Assembly (NCBI GenBank): GCA_028864885.1 | Contig: JAGWLR010000016.1 | Coordinates: forward strand, 1 to 48,657 | DNA from: Burkholderiales bacterium | GTDB lineage: Bacteria; Pseudomonadota; Gammaproteobacteria; Burkholderiales; Burkholderiaceae_C | Direction of reading: 5' to 3' | DNA: 48,657 nt | Translations under genes and position numbers: made by a program | Shown here: positions 9,886 through 48,657 of the stretch, one piece after another | Layout: each line of letters starts with the position of its first letter | Position numbering within the stretch: the stretch's first letter is position 1 | Notes under the pieces: generated by a model | The model's input: the letters and a program-made list of their open reading frames with translations, nothing else | Told to the model about the DNA's origin: nothing | The model's database searches: none

Positions 9886-10087
9886 GGTGGGGGCTCCTGG
9901 TGGGCAACTCTGGGGCTGCCATGGGTTGAAGATTAATGGGGCAAGACGCCGCCGAGGTTGCACCTCGTTCACGTCTGATTTCAATAAATTTGAATGGTCA
10001 TAGAGGGACATCGACGGAACAGGCTGTCCTCAAGACCCAGAAAAAACGGTCGAAATGCTTGAACGATGCACCGCATCGCGATCAACC

Positions 10088-15104: not shown

Positions 15105-15890
15105 TCAAGCCCGCAGTGTAGACGTGCCGTGCGAAGCGTGCACAACAGGCAGGCGATACACCCATATCGGCCGCCCGGAATCCAAAGTGAAGTGCGCGTG
15201 GGGTGGTACCACCTTGCCTGCTGCGTCGGTGGCTGCAAACTCCAGGCTCACCAGCCAGCTACCGGGCTTCATGGTGGCGCAAGCCTTGGCCCAGGCACGT
15301 GGCATGGTTTCGGGCCGCTGAAACAAGTACACCAGGTCGTACGCGGACCAGTTGGCCGCCCACATGTCCCCGCGTCGCACCTGGGCCCAGGGGCATCGCA
15401 GCGCGCAAACTGCCCACCACATCCAGCTCCACTCGATGCCCATCAGGCGAGCGCTCGGATACGCCTGTCGCAGGGCGCGCAAACCATCGCCCATGCCACA
15501 GCCGGCATCCAGAATCTGCGCCCCGTCGGGCAAGTGCACCTGCTCTGGCAAGTTCAACAAGGCATCACGCGGGGTGGGAAAGACAGGGGCGTCTTGCCAG
15601 GACCGGATGGGGTAAGCCAACAGCAGCAAGGCCAGGGGCGCCAACCAAACCCAAGCAGGCAACCCGCCGCCCTGCCCCAACGCCAGCACCGACAGCGGAA
15701 AGCCCCCCGCCACAAACACGCGCCGCCAGGTGGTGGCGGCCACGGCGGGCCACAGCGCGAGCGACGCGCCCAAGGCCGTGGGCAAGGTCAGCACGGCCCA
15801 CAGCGGCGCCGCCGCTTGCCGCAACACCCAGGCCAGCACCCAGGCCGCCGCCCATGTCAACAAAGCTGGCAAAGGCCAGACGATGCGCAT
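15105..15890 (-). CDS. Membrane-anchored class I SAM methyltransferase
   Basis: The 261-residue protein combines an N-terminal membrane part with about four hydrophobic segments (residues 5-105, including LPALLTWAAAWVLAWVL and WVWLAPLALLLLAYPI) and a C-terminal methyltransferase-like domain. The SAM motif is ILDAGCGMGDGLRAL, followed by acidic GIEWSW and the segment YDLVYLFQRPETMPRAW. The substrate is unknown. It begins 7 bases after parB if the ATG at 15890 is used; a GTG at 15917 would overlap parB. Tight spacing suggests co-transcription with parB upstream and the flavin reductase downstream. Such a gene after parB is not part of the core par operon. Confidence 0.75.
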   Translation of the reverse strand: MRIVWPLPALLTWAAAWVLAWVLRQAAAPLWAVLTLPTALGASLALWPAVAATTWRRVFVAGGFPLSVLALGQGGGLPAWVWLAPLALLLLAYPIRSWQDAPVFPTPRDALLNLPEQVHLPDGAQILDAGCGMGDGLRALRQAYPSARLMGIEWSWMWWAVCALRCPWAQVRRGDMWAANWSAYDLVYLFQRPETMPRAWAKACATMKPGSWLVSLEFAATDAAGKVVPPHAHFTLDSGRPIWVYRLPVVHASHGTSTLRA

Positions 15891-15897
15891 GCGGCGA

Positions 15898-16797
15898 TCA
15901 GTCCGTCGATCCACCACGCAGCTTGTCGATCAAGCCATTGAGCTCATCGAGGCTGCCAAACTGAATGGTGATCTCACCCTGTTCACCGCGCTTGGTCTTG
16001 CGCTTGACATGGATCTCCACCTGTGCGGTCAAGAGGTCAGACAGTTCCTCTTCCAGCCGCACCACATCACGCGATTTTTCTTGCTTGACCCGCAGCAGCG
16101 GGGTCTGGCGACCCGCGCCCTGCACCTTGGCCACGAGCTTTTCTGCCTCGCGCACATTGAGCTTCTTGGCCGCCACCTCATGCGCGGTGGTGATCTGCTG
16201 TGCTTTGTCCAGCGACAGCAAGGCACGGGCGTGGCCCATGTCGATGTCACCGGCCATCAGCATGCCTTGCACCGGCTCGGCCAGGTTCAGCAGGCGCAGC
16301 AGATTGGAGGCCGCACTGCGCGAACGACCGACCGCTTGCGCGGCTTGCTCATGCGTCAGGCCGAATTCTTGCGTCAGGCGCTGCAGGCCCTGGGCTTCTT
16401 CCAGCGGATTGAGGTCTTCCCGCTGAATGTTCTCGATCAGGGCCATCACGGCGGCGGCTTCGTCAGGCACCTCCTTGACGAGCACCGGCACCTCGGTCAG
16501 GCCAGCCAGACGCGCCGCACGCGAGCGGCGTTCACCGGCGATGATTTCATAACGACCCTCACCGATCGGGCGAACCAGGATCGGTTGCATGATGCCCTGC
16601 GAACGGATCGACTCGGCCAGCTCGTACAAGGAGCCCTCGTCCATGCGCGTGCGAGGCTGGTACTTGCCCGCCTGCATCAGATCAAGTCGCAAAGTCGTTG
16701 GCGCCCCCTCGCTGCTCACGGCGGGTGCGTCGCTCACTTTGGGGCCCAACAGGGCCTCCAGGCCCATGCCCAAGCCTTTGGATTTCTTCGTTGCCAT
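15898..16797 (-). CDS. parB: Chromosome-partitioning protein ParB (Spo0J)
   Basis: ParB binds parS sites near the origin, spreads as a CTP-dependent clamp and is moved by ParA so that daughter origins separate. The 299-residue protein has the typical N terminus KGLGMGLEALLG that contacts ParA, a CTP-binding ParB/Srx domain with GERRSRAARLAGL and ENIQREDLNPLEEAQ (about residues 70-125), an HTH parS-binding domain with THEQAAQAVGRSRSAASN (about 140-165), and a C-terminal dimerisation region. I chose the ATG at 16797. Three parS sites lie 3.5-5 kb away in rsmG and mnmG. It is separated from parA by a hydrolase gene and an opposing PAS-REC gene. Confidence 0.97.
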   Translation of the reverse strand: MATKKSKGLGMGLEALLGPKVSDAPAVSSEGAPTTLRLDLMQAGKYQPRTRMDEGSLYELAESIRSQGIMQPILVRPIGEGRYEIIAGERRSRAARLAGLTEVPVLVKEVPDEAAAVMALIENIQREDLNPLEEAQGLQRLTQEFGLTHEQAAQAVGRSRSAASNLLRLLNLAEPVQGMLMAGDIDMGHARALLSLDKAQQITTAHEVAAKKLNVREAEKLVAKVQGAGRQTPLLRVKQEKSRDVVRLEEELSDLLTAQVEIHVKRKTKRGEQGEITIQFGSLDELNGLIDKLRGGSTD

Positions 16798-16813
16798 AGG
16801 TTGAGATTGTCGT

Positions 16814-17416
16814 CTATGTCGGCGGCAGCGCATCCACCCATTGGCCAAACAGGTTCCAGCCCTGGGGCCAATCACCTTGCCCTGATGCGGCGTTCACATG
16901 CCCCAAGGCGCCCAGGGACACAAAGCTGGCCCCCCAGTCCTGCGCCAGCCGGGCTGCGCGCTCAGGGCGGCTGTAGCTGTCATTCGTCGACGCCAGGACC
17001 TGAGCCGGAAACGGCAAGCGTTGCCGTGGCACCTTGATCCAGCCGTGTAGCTGCGGCGGCAACTCATCGAGCCGATCTGGCGAATCGAGATCCGGTGGCG
17101 CTACCAACCACGCGCCGCGAACACGGGCAATGTGCTTTGAATGAGTCGCCCAAGCCGCCACCAAATGACACCCCAGGCTGTGCGCCACCAGCACCGCAGG
17201 CTCTTCGAGCAAATGGTCTTGCGCCAACAAGGCCTCGTCGAGCTGCATCATCCAGTCACCCCGGCGAGGCCAGTGCCAGTCATCTTGCGCAACCTTGACC
17301 CAATGGGCATGGTCCGAATGGATGTCGGCCCAGCGGCTTTGCCAATGTTCGGGTCCAGAATCGTTCCAGCCGGCTAGCAGAACGAAGGTCGATAAACGCG
17401 GTCTACGGGTTGTCAT
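16814..17416 (-). CDS. RBBP9/YdeN-family serine hydrolase
   Basis: The 200-residue protein is a small alpha/beta hydrolase of the RBBP9/YdeN type. The start TFVLLAGWNDSGPEHWQSRW is diagnostic. The catalytic triad is visible: nucleophile Ser in VAHSLGCH, Asp in ASTNDSYS and His in GALGHVNAASG. No signal peptide is seen, so it should be cytoplasmic. The ATG at 17416 is used; more distal starts run into the promoter region of the divergent PAS-REC gene. It lies 16 bases upstream of parB and so is likely co-transcribed with it. The substrate is unknown, and a direct role in chromosome partition is not implied by the sequence. Confidence 0.88.
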   Translation of the reverse strand: MTTRRPRLSTFVLLAGWNDSGPEHWQSRWADIHSDHAHWVKVAQDDWHWPRRGDWMMQLDEALLAQDHLLEEPAVLVAHSLGCHLVAAWATHSKHIARVRGAWLVAPPDLDSPDRLDELPPQLHGWIKVPRQRLPFPAQVLASTNDSYSRPERAARLAQDWGASFVSLGALGHVNAASGQGDWPQGWNLFGQWVDALPPT

Positions 17417-17477
17417 GCCCCCTATCCTAGTGTCTCGTGGATGAGGCAAAAGTGTTGCAAATTGCAATAATGGCAGA

Positions 17478-18938
17478 ATGAGTCAAGTGCTGAGGTTTAG
17501 CACCATGTCCGGAAAGTCTTCTCCACTCGCAGATCAAAATGCTGCCGAGGCCTTCCGGGCATCCCCGGAAGAACTCGGGCAGCAAGCTGCGCTTTGGGAA
17601 GCCGTTTTTGAGCAAAGCGCCTGTGGGCAGATGTTGCTCAGCCCAGAAGGCGAGATCCAGGCCGTCAACAGCAAAGCCTGCCAGATGCTGGGCTACGCGC
17701 GCGATGCCTTGCTCGGCACCCGCTGCCACACCCTCACCCACCCTGGCGACCTCTCGTCCGAACTCGATCACTGGCGCCATCTGCAAGAGGGCCACCTTCC
17801 GGCCTTCCGGCTGGAACAACGCTTCCTCAAGCACAACGGCGCCATCATCTGGGTCGAGATGCATGTGTCCATGCTGCGCGACGCCAAGGGGCAAGCCTCG
17901 CGCGCTGTCGCGGTGTTGCACGACATCAGCACCCGCAAGCACATCGAGCGCAGCCTGCGCGAACGCGACCTGCTGCTGAAAAGCCTGGACCACATTCCCG
18001 GCGCCCTCTACAAAGTGCTGCTGCCCGTGCAAGGCGAGCCTCAACTGCTGTACGCCAGCACGCGGGCGGCCGAACTGTATGAAGTGGATCCAGCCTCGCA
18101 GCGCCTGAACTGGACGACCCACTACAAGCGGGTCCACCCCGAAGATTTGCACATGGTGACACGCCTGGTCGAGGCCTCGCTGCAGCACCAGAGCCACCCG
18201 ATTCAATACGAATACCGCGTCGTCCTGCCCAACAAAGGGGTACGCTGGCTGTCCGGTGAAGCCGTGGCGCAGCCTTTGCCTGATGGCGGCACAGCTTGGT
18301 ACGGCTACACCAACGACATCACCGAGCAACGGCAAAACCGCTTCACCGGTGACCCTCGTAGCGAGGAAGCCGCCGTGGCCAATCCGGTGGTGGCCACCAT
18401 GGTGTCGCGCACCGACATCCAGATCGACCCGCTGCCGCCATCCGATCCGCCCACGCCTGCCTCGCCTAGTTTGGGCGGCGACACCCAGCCCGATCTGCTG
18501 CCCGACCTGCCGCAACCCGTTCAGCCGACGGCCAGCAACGTGCGCCCGATCCGGGTGCTGTACGCCGAAGACAATGAGATCAATGTGCTGCTGGTGGAGC
18601 AGATCTTCAAGCTGCGCCCGCAGTGGGAACTGGTCGTGGCCCCCAATGGCGCCAGCGCACTCGAAGAAGCGCGCAAGCACCGCCCGGACATCATGCTGGT
18701 CGACCTGCACCTGGGCGACATGACCGGCTTCGACCTGATCCAGGCCCTGGAGCAGAACCCCGACACCCGGGACATCACACGGGTGGCGCTCTCAGCCGAT
18801 GCCATGCCCGACAGCATCCAGACGGCGGAACGGCACGGCTTCATCGACTACCTGACCAAGCCGCTGGACGTACTCGCCTTGTTGCGTTGCCTGGACGACC
18901 TGCTGTCGCCCAACACGGCCCCCCAAGGCGCTGCCTGA
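17478..18938 (+). CDS. PAS-PAS-receiver protein without kinase domain
   Basis: The 486-residue protein has two PAS domains (about residues 40-160 and 165-290) and a C-terminal receiver domain (360-480) with acidic pocket YAEDNEIN, acceptor Asp about 409 (MLVDLHLGD) and Lys in YLTKPL. Between the second PAS and the receiver, where HisKA and ATPase domains would sit in a hybrid kinase, there is only a proline-rich linker (residues about 295-355, with PLPPSDPPTPASPSLGG). Its receiver is strikingly like that of the hybrid kinase at 12493 (LRPQWEL/MRPQWHL, HLGDM, RVALSAD), so it may accept phosphate from that kinase. The gene lies between the hydrolase-parB pair and parA on the opposite strand, ending one base before the parA stop. 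Confidence 0.85.
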   Translation: MSQVLRFSTMSGKSSPLADQNAAEAFRASPEELGQQAALWEAVFEQSACGQMLLSPEGEIQAVNSKACQMLGYARDALLGTRCHTLTHPGDLSSELDHWRHLQEGHLPAFRLEQRFLKHNGAIIWVEMHVSMLRDAKGQASRAVAVLHDISTRKHIERSLRERDLLLKSLDHIPGALYKVLLPVQGEPQLLYASTRAAELYEVDPASQRLNWTTHYKRVHPEDLHMVTRLVEASLQHQSHPIQYEYRVVLPNKGVRWLSGEAVAQPLPDGGTAWYGYTNDITEQRQNRFTGDPRSEEAAVANPVVATMVSRTDIQIDPLPPSDPPTPASPSLGGDTQPDLLPDLPQPVQPTASNVRPIRVLYAEDNEINVLLVEQIFKLRPQWELVVAPNGASALEEARKHRPDIMLVDLHLGDMTGFDLIQALEQNPDTRDITRVALSADAMPDSIQTAERHGFIDYLTKPLDVLALLRCLDDLLSPNTAPQGAA

Positions 18939-18939
18939 C

Positions 18940-19734
18940 TCAGACCTGGCGCGACCGGCTGGCCTGATCTTTCGCCACGCGCTGCACCAGCTCTTCGGCG
19001 AACGACACGAACGCCTGAGCCCCTTTGCTGCTGGGATCGAACACCACACCCGGAACGCCATAACTGGGCGCCTCGGCCAATCGCACGTTGCGCGGGATCA
19101 CAGTGTCGAACACCTTCTCGCCAAAGTGAGCCTTCAGCTGATCGCTCACCTGCTGCTGCAAGGTGATGCGGGGGTCGAACATGACCCGCAGCAATCCGAT
19201 CAACTGCAGATCCCGATTCAGATTGGCGTGCACCTGCTTGACGGTGTTGACCAAGTCCGTCAGGCCCTCCAGTGCAAAATATTCGCACTGCATCGGCACG
19301 ATCACGCCGTGGGCGCAGGTCAGGCCATTGAGGGTGAGCAGGCTGAGCGAAGGCGGGCAATCGATCAACACGAAGTCGTAATCGCCCGCTGCCACTTCAA
19401 TGGCGGTCTTCAGCCGCCGATCACGGCGCTCCAGGTTGACCAACTCGATTTCGGCGCCGGCCAGCTCCCGATTGGCCCCCAACACATCGTAGCCCCCCTT
19501 CTCGCTTCGCGTCCGCGCCTCGATCAGGGAAGTCGACTCGAGCAAGACGTCGTACACCGAAGCGCCGAGGGTGCGCTTGTCCACCCCCGAGCCCATGGTC
19601 GCATTGCCCTGCGGATCCAGGTCCACGATCAGGACGCGTTGCCCGATCTTGGCCAGCCCGGCGGCCAGGTTGACTGTGGTGGTGGTCTTGCCCACCCCAC
19701 CCTTTTGGTTGGCGATGCAGAAGATGTGTGGCAT
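18940..19734 (-). CDS. parA: Chromosome-partitioning ATPase ParA (Soj)
   Basis: ParA is a nucleoid-bound ATPase that moves ParB-parS complexes. The 264-residue protein starts at PHIFCIANQKGGVGKTTTTV, holding the deviant Walker A motif with the signature Lys, followed by the VDLDPQGNAT switch region and LIDCPPSLSLLTLNG (Walker B). It has no N-terminal HTH, so it is of the chromosomal Soj type rather than a plasmid autoregulator. I chose the ATG at 19734, since the Walker strand begins at once; a longer reading frame upstream has no conserved residues. It sits downstream of rsmG and the small acid-shock-like gene, with a strong terminator between, so it may need its own promoter. Confidence 0.97.
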   Translation of the reverse strand: MPHIFCIANQKGGVGKTTTTVNLAAGLAKIGQRVLIVDLDPQGNATMGSGVDKRTLGASVYDVLLESTSLIEARTRSEKGGYDVLGANRELAGAEIELVNLERRDRRLKTAIEVAAGDYDFVLIDCPPSLSLLTLNGLTCAHGVIVPMQCEYFALEGLTDLVNTVKQVHANLNRDLQLIGLLRVMFDPRITLQQQVSDQLKAHFGEKVFDTVIPRNVRLAEAPSYGVPGVVFDPSSKGAQAFVSFAEELVQRVAKDQASRSRQV

Positions 19735-19804
19735 GCCGGAATTATCGCGGGTGATCGGGCCCCGGCCGACAAGGCCTGCGAATCCGACAACACATTCAGA
19801 CAAG

Positions 19805-19827
19805 AAAAAGGGGCCCCAGGGCCCCTC
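19805..19827 (-). terminator. Rho-independent terminator after the acid-shock-like gene
   Basis: Read on the minus strand, AGGGGCCC pairs with GGGCCCCT (7-8 base pairs, short loop) and is followed by TTTTT. It lies between the small Lys/His-rich gene and parA and should limit read-through into parA. A second perfect 8-base inverted repeat without a T-tract, GTTCAGTG / CACTGAAC (19859-19880), spans the stop codon of the upstream gene. Confidence 0.8.
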
Positions 19828-19871
19828 TCGGTTTGACAGGATCGATTCAGACCGATCCGTTCAGTGTGAAC

Positions 19872-20135
19872 TCACTGAACCTGGCTAGCCGCCGCGGCCT
19901 TGTGATGCACCTTTTTGTGGTGGGTCTTCTTGTGATGCGCCTTCTTGGCCTTTTTGTGGGCGACCTTCTTGTGCTTGGCCTTGTGATGCACCTTGCCTGT
20001 CGATGGGGCTGGCGCTTGCATAGGGGCTGGCTGCTCGGGCGGAACCGGGGTGGGCGCTTGTTGGGCCAGCGCGAACGACGTGGCGGTCAACAACGCCACG
20101 ACCACGGCGGCGCGTTTGAACAAAGTTTGTGCCAT
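19872..20135 (-). CDS. Lys/His-rich periplasmic protein, acid-shock (Asr)-like
   Basis: The 87-residue product has a clear signal peptide (KRAAVVVALLTATSFALA, cleavage near ALA-QQ), a short Pro/Gln/Ala segment, and a C-terminal tail made almost only of Lys, His and Ala, with repeated HHKK and HKK groups (ten histidines within about 35 residues). This composition matches the acid-shock protein Asr of enterobacteria, a disordered periplasmic protein thought to buffer or protect other proteins at low pH. Metal binding by the histidines is another option. The ATG at 20135 has AAGGAG at good spacing. It lies between rsmG and parA and is followed by a terminator, so it is probably a separate inserted unit. 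The family call rests on composition, not on alignment. Confidence 0.75.
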   Translation of the reverse strand: MAQTLFKRAAVVVALLTATSFALAQQAPTPVPPEQPAPMQAPAPSTGKVHHKAKHKKVAHKKAKKAHHKKTHHKKVHHKAAAASQVQ

Positions 20136-20224
20136 GAAAGTTTCTCCTTGTGATGAGCGACCCATGGTTAACCACCCAGTCACCGTTTCGGTTGACGATA
20201 AAAGCCCTTGCACAGGGATTTTTT

Positions 20225-20986
20225 TCATTTTTGCCCGGGCCGCATCCAGACCACGCAGCGATCCGCATCCAGCCCCGGCACCACCAACGGTTCCACGTGA
20301 AACACATCAATGGTTTCAGGCAAGGCCGCCTGCTCGTCCATCGGGGTCTTGCCCTTCATCGCCATCCAGACCCCGCCCGGCGCCACCAACGCTCCTGTTA
20401 GCGACACAAAATCCACCAGTGAGGCAAAGGCTCGCGAGGTGATCACGTCGTACTGCCCTTTGAGCTGTTCGACACGCGCATGCTCCGCCTTCAGATTGCT
20501 CAGTTTGAGCTCGGCCGCCACCTGGCGAATGAATGCCGCCTTCTTGCCTACCGTGTCCACACAGGTCACTGCCACGTCTGGGCGCGCAATCGCCAGCACC
20601 ACCCCGGGCAGCCCGCCCCCGCTGCCCACGTCCAACAACCTGGCCCCAGCGGATTCGTCTGGTCGCCCAGCCAGATGCCGAGCCAAGGGCCCCAACACCG
20701 CCAGGCAATCCGCCAGGTGATGCGAGAGCATGTCTTGAGGATCCCGCAACGCGGTCAGGTTGTAGGTGGCATTCCACTTTTGCAGCAACTGCATGTACTG
20801 CGCGAGCTGGTGCTGCTGCTCAGCTGAAAGCCCGTCCAGCCTCATCGCTGACAGATAAGGTGCCATCCCGCTGAGCCATTGCTCAGCCCCCCATACCGGG
20901 TGCGCCTTGCTGGCTGGCGACACAGACGGCACCCCGCCCACGCCCCCCAAAGACCCCGCTTGACCGGGGCGACGATTCAAAGTCAT
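20225..20986 (-). CDS. rsmG: 16S rRNA (guanine-N7) methyltransferase RsmG (GidB)
   Basis: RsmG methylates N7 of G527 in 16S rRNA (E. coli numbering) using SAM. The 253-residue protein has the family core: LLQKWNATYNLTALRDP, HHLADCLAVL, the SAM motif LLDVGSGGGLPGVVLAI, CVDTVGKKAAFIRQVA and VITSRAFASL. It is about 45 residues longer than E. coli RsmG because of a Gly/Pro-rich N-terminal extension. The ATG at 20986 is supported by AGGAT at good spacing. It follows mnmG by 15 bases, the classic mnmG-rsmG pair. A parS-like site is embedded in the coding sequence at 20289-20304. A weak CCCT/AGGG hairpin with flanking A/T runs just beyond its stop may serve as an attenuator or terminator. Confidence 0.97.
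   Translation of the reverse strand: MTLNRRPGQAGSLGGVGGVPSVSPASKAHPVWGAEQWLSGMAPYLSAMRLDGLSAEQQHQLAQYMQLLQKWNATYNLTALRDPQDMLSHHLADCLAVLGPLARHLAGRPDESAGARLLDVGSGGGLPGVVLAIARPDVAVTCVDTVGKKAAFIRQVAAELKLSNLKAEHARVEQLKGQYDVITSRAFASLVDFVSLTGALVAPGGVWMAMKGKTPMDEQAALPETIDVFHVEPLVVPGLDADRCVVWMRPGQK
20289..20304. promoter_or_regulatory. parS centromere-like site within rsmG
   Basis: GGTTCCACGTGAAACA matches the ParB-binding consensus TGTTNCACGTGAAACA with one change at the first base, and the inner GTTNCACGTGAAAC core is perfect. It lies in the coding sequence of rsmG. With the two sites in mnmG it makes three sites within 1.33 kb. Confidence 0.8.
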
Positions 20987-44512: not shown

Positions 44513-47098
<2,586 letters not shown>

Positions 47099-47228
47099 TT
47101 TTGTACGCCTTCCCAGGCGGCAAAGAAGAGGTGTGTCCAAGGTTGGTGCCCGCCTCGTCCCATTTGCATTCCCGCGCATAGGACGGCGAACGAATCTTGC
47201 AGCTTGTAGCCGACGGGCTGATCGAGCT

Positions 47229-47629
47229 TCAATGACAGAAGTACCCGAAGCACACCTCGCGGTCCCCAGAAGCTTTCTTCAAGCCCGGGTTGAAACCAGC
47301 TCGCCACAGACGGTGTCGTGTCAGTCCAAGCAAAGAGGTCAGTAGCAAAACCCTGGAGGCGTCGCTGATTGGGCAGAAGTATCCTCCCCTGACCTTCTTC
47401 CAACCATGCTCGACCATGAGCTTCACAGTCATTTCGTTTTCAATGGTGTGAGCGGCATGTTCGTCAGGTACTTCGTGCTCGTGCTGAAAGAGCACATTTA
47501 CGGGTGAATGCGGCTTGGTCCATGCTGCACTTGCCTTCGTGGTGCTGGCGGGCTCGGCGAACAACGTTTAGAGATGCCCACGTAATAGCGCCCACCGGCC
47601 AATTCGAGGACGTAGAACCAGTTCTTCAT
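47229..47629 (-). pseudogene. GIY-YIG nuclease-domain gene, broken by two frameshifts
   Basis: An ATG at 47629 begins a typical GIY-YIG domain: KNWFYVLELAGGRYYVGIS. The frame is then lost, but the rest of the domain continues in the next frame as NVVRRARQHHEGK and after a second shift as AWTKPHSPVNVLFQHEHEV, ending ENEMTVKLMVEHGWKKVRGG and YFC. Together these read as one domain of about 105 residues. Two single-base insertions explain it: one A in the AAA at 47567-47569 and one T near 47529; removing them restores GISNVVRRARQHHEGKAAWT. The ATG overlaps the stop of the JetD-like gene by four bases (ATGA), so the two were once translationally coupled. It may be a true pseudogene or reflect sequencing errors. 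The catalytic Tyr pair, Arg and Glu appear to be present. Confidence 0.82.
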
Positions 47630-48657
47630 TGCGCTTCAGGCCAGGACTCTTGATCTACGCATAGGCCTGATTGCCGCAGTGCGGGCAGCAACACTGCATC
47701 GGCATAGGCACACCCGGTGATGCCAGGATCAGTCTGTCCTTCCTTGCCTGCGGACTCTGGGCGGTGCCCCCTTGAGGTCTGCAACAATGACAACAGCGCC
47801 TCATACCCAGGACGCCATGCACCACAGTGAGGAATGCTCTGACGGAGGTGCGCGAGGATCTGCATGCCTGCGGAGTCGAGGTCGCCATAGAAGCTGACGA
47901 CGGTGGATTCCTGCGCCACGCCATCGCGTATATACAGCCAATCTTTGAACGCGAGACGATCTGCCTCGATTGTTGAATCTCTCCAGTAGAGAGCACTGCC
48001 CTGTGGCGTGCGCAAACGCTTTGCAGCGCCTTTGAATCCCGACGCGTAAACCAGCGCGGACTTGGCCCATTCAGACTGGCGCCTGTCTGCCATGGATTCG
48101 AATGTCACCAGGTTTTCGATGAACAGTACGGTGGCCGCTGGTTGATGCCGGGCCCAATCTGATGGCAGGCTCACCAGCAGTTGAATGGGGGCTTCCAGGA
48201 ACTGTCCCTCACGAGCACCCAGCAATCGCAGCATTTCTTCGCGGCTGTCCAGAACCTTGCTGTGGCCGTTGAAGTGTTTCGCAGACAGTTGCCGGACATA
48301 CCCAGATTGCTCCGAGCGACATGCCACTGCCAGGAGATTGAGCGTGCGAGCACACTCGACGTGATCCATGCCTTGAAACCATGGCAAAGGATTGCGCCGC
48401 AGGTAGTCCAGCAAGGCCGGGGCATCGGGCACGTCCAGCACACCTGGTGCTTTGAGCTGCTGAACCAACCCTCGGCTCCACTTGGGCCCCTCTGGCAGGT
48501 GGCCCGACCACAAGGCCAAGGCATCGGCATCCCGGAGCTCCAGCGTCGGGTCTTGGTCCGCCAGCGTCTGAAAGGCCTGGGGCGTCTTGGTCCGCAGCGA
48601 GACCCAGCCCGTTTGCACCAGGGATTGCAAGAGCGCAGCGATGCTGGCCAGCGCATC
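47626..48657 (-). CDS. JetD-like TOPRIM protein (Wadjet/MksG nuclease subunit family), 5' end off window
   Basis: The frame is open to the right edge, so the start is not visible; about 343 codons are seen of an expected 380-420. The C-terminal half matches JetD/DUF2220: FIENLVTF (conserved Glu, 48100-48117), then STVVSFYGDLDSAGMQIL with the TOPRIM Asp-x-Asp (around 47866-47886) and the closing YADAVLLPALRQSGLCVDQE. An upstream SAKHFNGHSKVLDS fits the family's SK motif. JetD is the plasmid-cleaving subunit of Wadjet systems, in which jetA, jetB and the SMC-like jetC precede jetD. Here those genes would lie just right of the window. The gene overlaps a GIY-YIG gene by four bases at its 3' end. 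An orphan gene is also possible. Confidence 0.8.
   Translation of the reverse strand, partial: DALASIAALLQSLVQTGWVSLRTKTPQAFQTLADQDPTLELRDADALALWSGHLPEGPKWSRGLVQQLKAPGVLDVPDAPALLDYLRRNPLPWFQGMDHVECARTLNLLAVACRSEQSGYVRQLSAKHFNGHSKVLDSREEMLRLLGAREGQFLEAPIQLLVSLPSDWARHQPAATVLFIENLVTFESMADRRQSEWAKSALVYASGFKGAAKRLRTPQGSALYWRDSTIEADRLAFKDWLYIRDGVAQESTVVSFYGDLDSAGMQILAHLRQSIPHCGAWRPGYEALLSLLQTSRGHRPESAGKEGQTDPGITGCAYADAVLLPALRQSGLCVDQESWPEAQ

Follow-up and report, generated by a model that had tools for sequence, protein, structure and literature searches.

A Wadjet jetD gene beside gyrB

The window, the whole 48,657-nucleotide stretch of DNA that we analyzed, forms the end of contig C157, and the contig stops at position 48657. 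The following features lie at this end:

44582-47098, plus strand: gyrB, a housekeeping neighbor (838-aa open frame, named by sight of the sequence)
47349-47531, minus strand: C-terminal piece of a GIY-YIG remnant, SAAWTKPHSP...VRGGYFC (in another frame than the N-terminal piece, open over 47229-47564; found with profile A1)
47564-47629, minus strand: N-terminal piece of the GIY-YIG remnant, MKNWFYVLELAGGRYYVGISKR (in a frame that stops after 43 codons)
47626-47629, minus strand: ATGA overlap between the jetD stop and the start of the GIY-YIG frame (from the sequence and translations)
47626-48657, minus strand: jetD, the TOPRIM nuclease gene of a type I Wadjet (matches to PDLC00527 and JetD_C; contig end at 48657)

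The minus-strand frame from 48657 to 47626 is open to the contig end, with 343 aa visible. The 5' end of jetD is cut off by the contig end and lies outside the window, and the first ~50 residues are missing. The product matched the PADLOC model for type I JetD (PDLC00527, E 3.6e-95) and the Pfam family JetD_C (E 2.8e-8). In an alignment of 10 JetDs, GDLD is invariant, as are the E and N within IEN/VEN; we take these two motifs to be the TOPRIM metal-binding motifs. The gene is thus a Wadjet type I jetD with a TOPRIM domain (DUF2220/DUF3322), which bears out the JetD-like TOPRIM gene of the preliminary description, and gyrB is as close by as that description had it: it ends at 47098 on the plus strand, ~0.5 kb from the junction of jetD and the GIY-YIG remnant. 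The 3' end of gyrB was recovered in other genomes of the genus. No solved structure matched the window JetD by sequence at E 0.01, and no RNA element was found in 47000-48657 at Rfam gathering scores.

The other Wadjet genes

To search the same genome for the other jet genes, the operon of locus L003 was used as query. L003 (JAFEHU010000007.1) is from a Burkholderiaceae MAG whose JetD is 83% identical to the window JetD. The query matched contig C87 at 15406-20611 with 89% identity, and otherwise only the window. The products encoded on C87 matched the type I models JetA1 (E 1.3e-183), JetB1 (E 4.9e-71) and JetC1 (E 7.2e-241), the last over the first 966 residues of JetC. C87 ends inside jetC, and the 3' part of this gene is missing from the assembly. 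We thus found on C87 the kleisin JetA, the KITE protein JetB (DUF4194) and the MukB-like SMC protein JetC of a type I Wadjet. On L003, the C87 match extends to 9132 and the window match begins only at 10001, which leaves about 870 bases missing from the assembly. The ends of C87 and C157 fit the L003 operon with this gap in jetC-jetD, and we infer that the two contigs join. The jetA-B-C-D operon is complete and in this order in L003, L004 (Aquabacterium parvum B6) and L005 (Pelomonas sp. Root1217).

The preliminary description had read the locus as a Wadjet and had proposed to look for jetC, jetB and jetA beyond the window. This part of it is supported: jetA, jetB and most of jetC, all of type I, are present on C87 of the same genome, in addition to the JetD matches.

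A second JetD_C match (E 6.1e-36) was observed in the same genome on contig C154 (39780-40103; L212 5781-6104 in genome G000). It lies in an open frame of 151 aa, covers profile positions 68-177, is apparently a fragment and is located ~1.2 kb from a tRNA-Phe gene.

A broken GIY-YIG gene overlaps the end of jetD

The stop codon of jetD (TGA, 47628-47626) overlaps the ATG (47629-47627) that opens MKNWFYVLELAGGRYYVGIS. Because an in-frame stop lies just upstream, this ATG is the natural start of the GIY-YIG frame. To identify the remnant, we used profile A1, made from eight intact GIY-YIG relatives, none of them from the window. In a whole-genome search it matched 47349-47531 with E 6.3e-15, and in a profile search the N-terminal piece right after jetD reached 17.0 bits (E about 0.001). 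Judged from these sequence scores, the GIY-YIG homology of the window pieces is more than chance. The motifs Y-x-L-x-L, Y-x-G, W-T, E-x3-T and VRGG are recognizable in the pieces, which taken separately found no match in Pfam.

Read from the ATGA, the frame reaches a stop after 43 codons, and the domain continues with its second half in another frame. In the third frame, RRARQHHEGK resembles the central part of the domain (-1.3 bits, below significance). The GIY-YIG gene is therefore broken by at least one, perhaps two, frameshifts. The locus has the domain homology of a stand-alone GIY-YIG nuclease, and none of its open frames encodes the entire catalytic domain. It could be that the frameshifts are sequencing errors close to the contig end. 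A programmed frameshift was also considered and is not favored, because the pieces lie in two or three different frames.

Thus, of the GIY-YIG gene that had been described as coupled to jetD through the ATGA, the 4-base overlap and the homology (E 6.3e-15; 17.0 bits) stood, but an intact gene did not: its first frame is 43 codons long and the domain is split between frames.

The pairing of jetD and GIY-YIG in other genomes

To examine whether the pairing is conserved, JetD was searched for in the family (19 of 299 genomes with a match), in the order with PDLC00527 (44 of 399) and in the phylum with JetD_C (40 of 398); the window genome is included in each count. Loci were taken from the best 30 of the 45 order-search matches and the best 30 of the 41 phylum-search matches. 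The other 15 order-search matches were covered by a comparison of places, and the remaining phylum-search matches belong to neither test.

The comparison of places covered 62 jetD places in 61 other genomes of the family and order, leaving out the window genome and a second fragment of the jetD remnant in genome G033. PF01541 matched somewhere in 60 of these 61 genomes and beside jetD in none of the 61. The smallest distance between a PF01541 match and a jetD place is 8.9 kb (G512), followed by 22 kb. Profile A1 matched somewhere in 26 of 62 genomes (the same 61 and our own); when the places were read, the window genome was the only one of the 62 with a match beside jetD.

In addition, the flanks were tested with two GIY-YIG profiles over all frames of 83 loci at E 0.05. 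Five loci were not counted: the window's own (L037) and the control L031, both of which were recovered; L168, which does not extend to jetD; and L146 and L201, which hold the same genes as L004 and L061, respectively. Among the 78 other distinct jetD-matching loci, none had a GIY-YIG match in the flanks at E 0.05. At least 200 bases downstream of jetD were available for 76 of the 78 and at least 1000 bases for 70; the set includes one doubtful JetD (L053) and one locus with no downstream DNA (L202). No loci 98% identical to each other were found among those checked. Five weak or broken JetD matches left out of the 83 (L021-L025) were checked separately and gave no GIY-YIG match. The complete operons of L003, L004 and L005 have no GIY-YIG gene behind jetD, and three plasmid JetDs among the 78 are adjoined, by annotation, by a GNAT, dehydrogenase or PHP-domain gene.

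The preliminary description had made its case depend on the same adjacency in other genomes. Within our sample there is no such genome (0 of 78 loci; 0 of 61 genomes by place), so this part of it fails. We also found no Wadjet paired with a GIY-YIG nuclease in the literature searched, mostly by titles and abstract starts. In the available part of one source (PMC10952713), the GIY-YIG domain appears with PD-T4-3 and PD-lambda-1, and the domains given for Wadjet are different ones.

Relatives of the GIY-YIG gene

The intact GIY-YIG relatives stand alone as genes and encode about 95 to 254 residues. With one of them (L031) as query, relatives were found in 8 plasmid records (Vibrio, Rossellomorea, Priestia), 4 of which are typed conjugative, and in 8 phage records, of which Shigella phage Buco and Pectobacterium phage Peat1 were read in context. 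With the C-terminal piece of the window as query, 3 of 298 family genomes matched: our own, G042, and G225 with E 9.6e-4. This query gave three weak plasmid matches, no phage record and no confirmed relative in viral contigs. In G042 (contig C12; L031 1375-2708), the intact GIY-YIG relative overlaps at its end with an AbiEii gene; the overlap is 13 bases if the AbiEii gene starts at its first GTG and 4 bases (ATGA) if it starts at the following ATG.

A class survey with profile A1 matched 139 of 369 genomes (our own included), mostly through the general GIY-YIG domain. Among the 29 new loci of this survey (L084-L112), none had a JetD motif in its flanks (about 1.5 kb or less), and in none was the VRGG ending part of the domain. 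Because this ending was missing, the class survey says little about the partners of this GIY-YIG family.

The region behind gyrB

To compare the site within the genus, a query spanning gyrB-jetD was used and matched 39 of 42 genomes. The DNA behind gyrB was read at 32 further places (two of them under 1 kb) and in G033 and G1057. We observed that it differs in nearly all genus genomes read (L150-L181, L148, L149) and holds restriction and other defense genes. The commonest open frame of at least 100 aa occurs in 5 of the 34 places, and the frames include type I restriction subunits. In this region, 109 open frames were also scanned with PADLOC; the scan is descriptive only (25 of 338 families listed, no control region). 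Since the DNA behind gyrB is so variable, this site has a fast turnover, enough to bring unrelated genes together. The region is possibly a defense hotspot.

Two genomes carry Wadjet genes in this region. In G1051 (contig C5; L168, L213), a second type I Wadjet is located directly behind gyrB, in the orientation opposite to the window's. Besides jetA, jetB and jetC, it has a jetD whose open frame spans 415 codons, and no GIY-YIG match was found at this jetD. In G033, of the same genus as the window genome, a degraded jetD of the same orientation is separated from gyrB by 13.7 kb (L148 14800-15100; contig C12 83311-83594), with type I methyltransferase and specificity genes between the two. G033 and the window have 24 identical bases across the jetD end, 8 of them from the ATG on, and then diverge; no GIY-YIG sequence follows the G033 remnant. 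As G033 has the same 24 bases across the jetD end, sequence comparison suggests that the junction may be older than the window genome.

Interpretation

Taken together, these data very probably describe an ordinary type I Wadjet in the variable, defense-rich region behind gyrB, whose jetD borders on what is left of an unrelated, decayed stand-alone gene for a GIY-YIG nuclease. By analogy with what PMC10586767 describes for Wadjet, a system of three types, JetABC would extrude circular DNA and activate its cleavage by JetD. The operon presumably works. The GIY-YIG remnant would take no part in this action, because no one frame encodes a complete domain. We suggest that jetD and the GIY-YIG gene met through the turnover of the region and not as one unit. 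Several points speak against this reading: the ATGA overlap, with an in-frame stop just upstream, is itself the layout of coupled genes, the 24 bases of G033 mean that the junction may be older, the frameshifts may be errors of sequencing, and about 870 bases of jetC-jetD are missing, so that the operon is seen incomplete.

The overlap, the family motifs still recognizable in the GIY-YIG pieces and the 24 identical bases that the window has in common with the G033 jetD remnant would also agree with a Wadjet variant in which a second nuclease of the GIY-YIG type is coupled to jetD, either still working (the frameshifts then being sequence errors) or working in an ancestor. However, the GIY-YIG frame is broken, the G033 remnant has no GIY-YIG after it, and no GIY-YIG match was found in the 78 other loci, in the 61 genomes by place or in G1051. 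We therefore regard this variant, which the preliminary description had put forward, as very unlikely, and with a broken gene and a pairing not found elsewhere it is left unsupported. We hold it quite improbable that an ancestral GIY-YIG gene was coupled to jetD as the second cutter of a rare Wadjet, with the gene decayed here and lost behind the G033 remnant, and with intact copies outside the sampled genomes. That the GIY-YIG gene belonged to a mobile piece (homing-type or from a plasmid or phage) that brought itself or the Wadjet behind gyrB and then decayed would suit its plasmid relatives (8 records, 4 typed conjugative) and phage relatives (8 records), its position between gyrB and jetD and its lower G+C (0.546, compared with 0.604 for jetD and 0.598 for gyrB), but a gene of this kind is absent from the corresponding edge of the complete operons L003, L004 and L005, and this origin is very improbable.

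On the reading that we prefer, an ordinary Wadjet next to an unrelated remnant, a 4-base overlap between a defense gene and a nuclease fragment is not alone evidence of a joint system. If intact pairs of jetD and GIY-YIG genes were found elsewhere, one would have to ask why a plasmid cutter that senses shape requires another nuclease.

Comparison with known systems

Compared with stand-alone GIY-YIG nucleases such as Rossellomorea WP_159130526.1 and Shigella phage Buco gp53, the window pieces have the same motifs, but this copy carries frameshifts and lies behind jetD. The seven relatives read in context, and also L031, have other neighbors than jetD.

Compared with the type I Wadjet (JetABCD, also MksBEFG), the operon described here lies on two contigs, between which about 870 bases are missing, and a broken GIY-YIG gene follows its jetD. 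By the PADLOC type I models, it consists of the same four gene families, and the order jetA-jetB-jetC on C87 together with jetD on C157 agrees with that of the complete operons in L003-L005. As it stands, the locus adds one more type I Wadjet to the known family.
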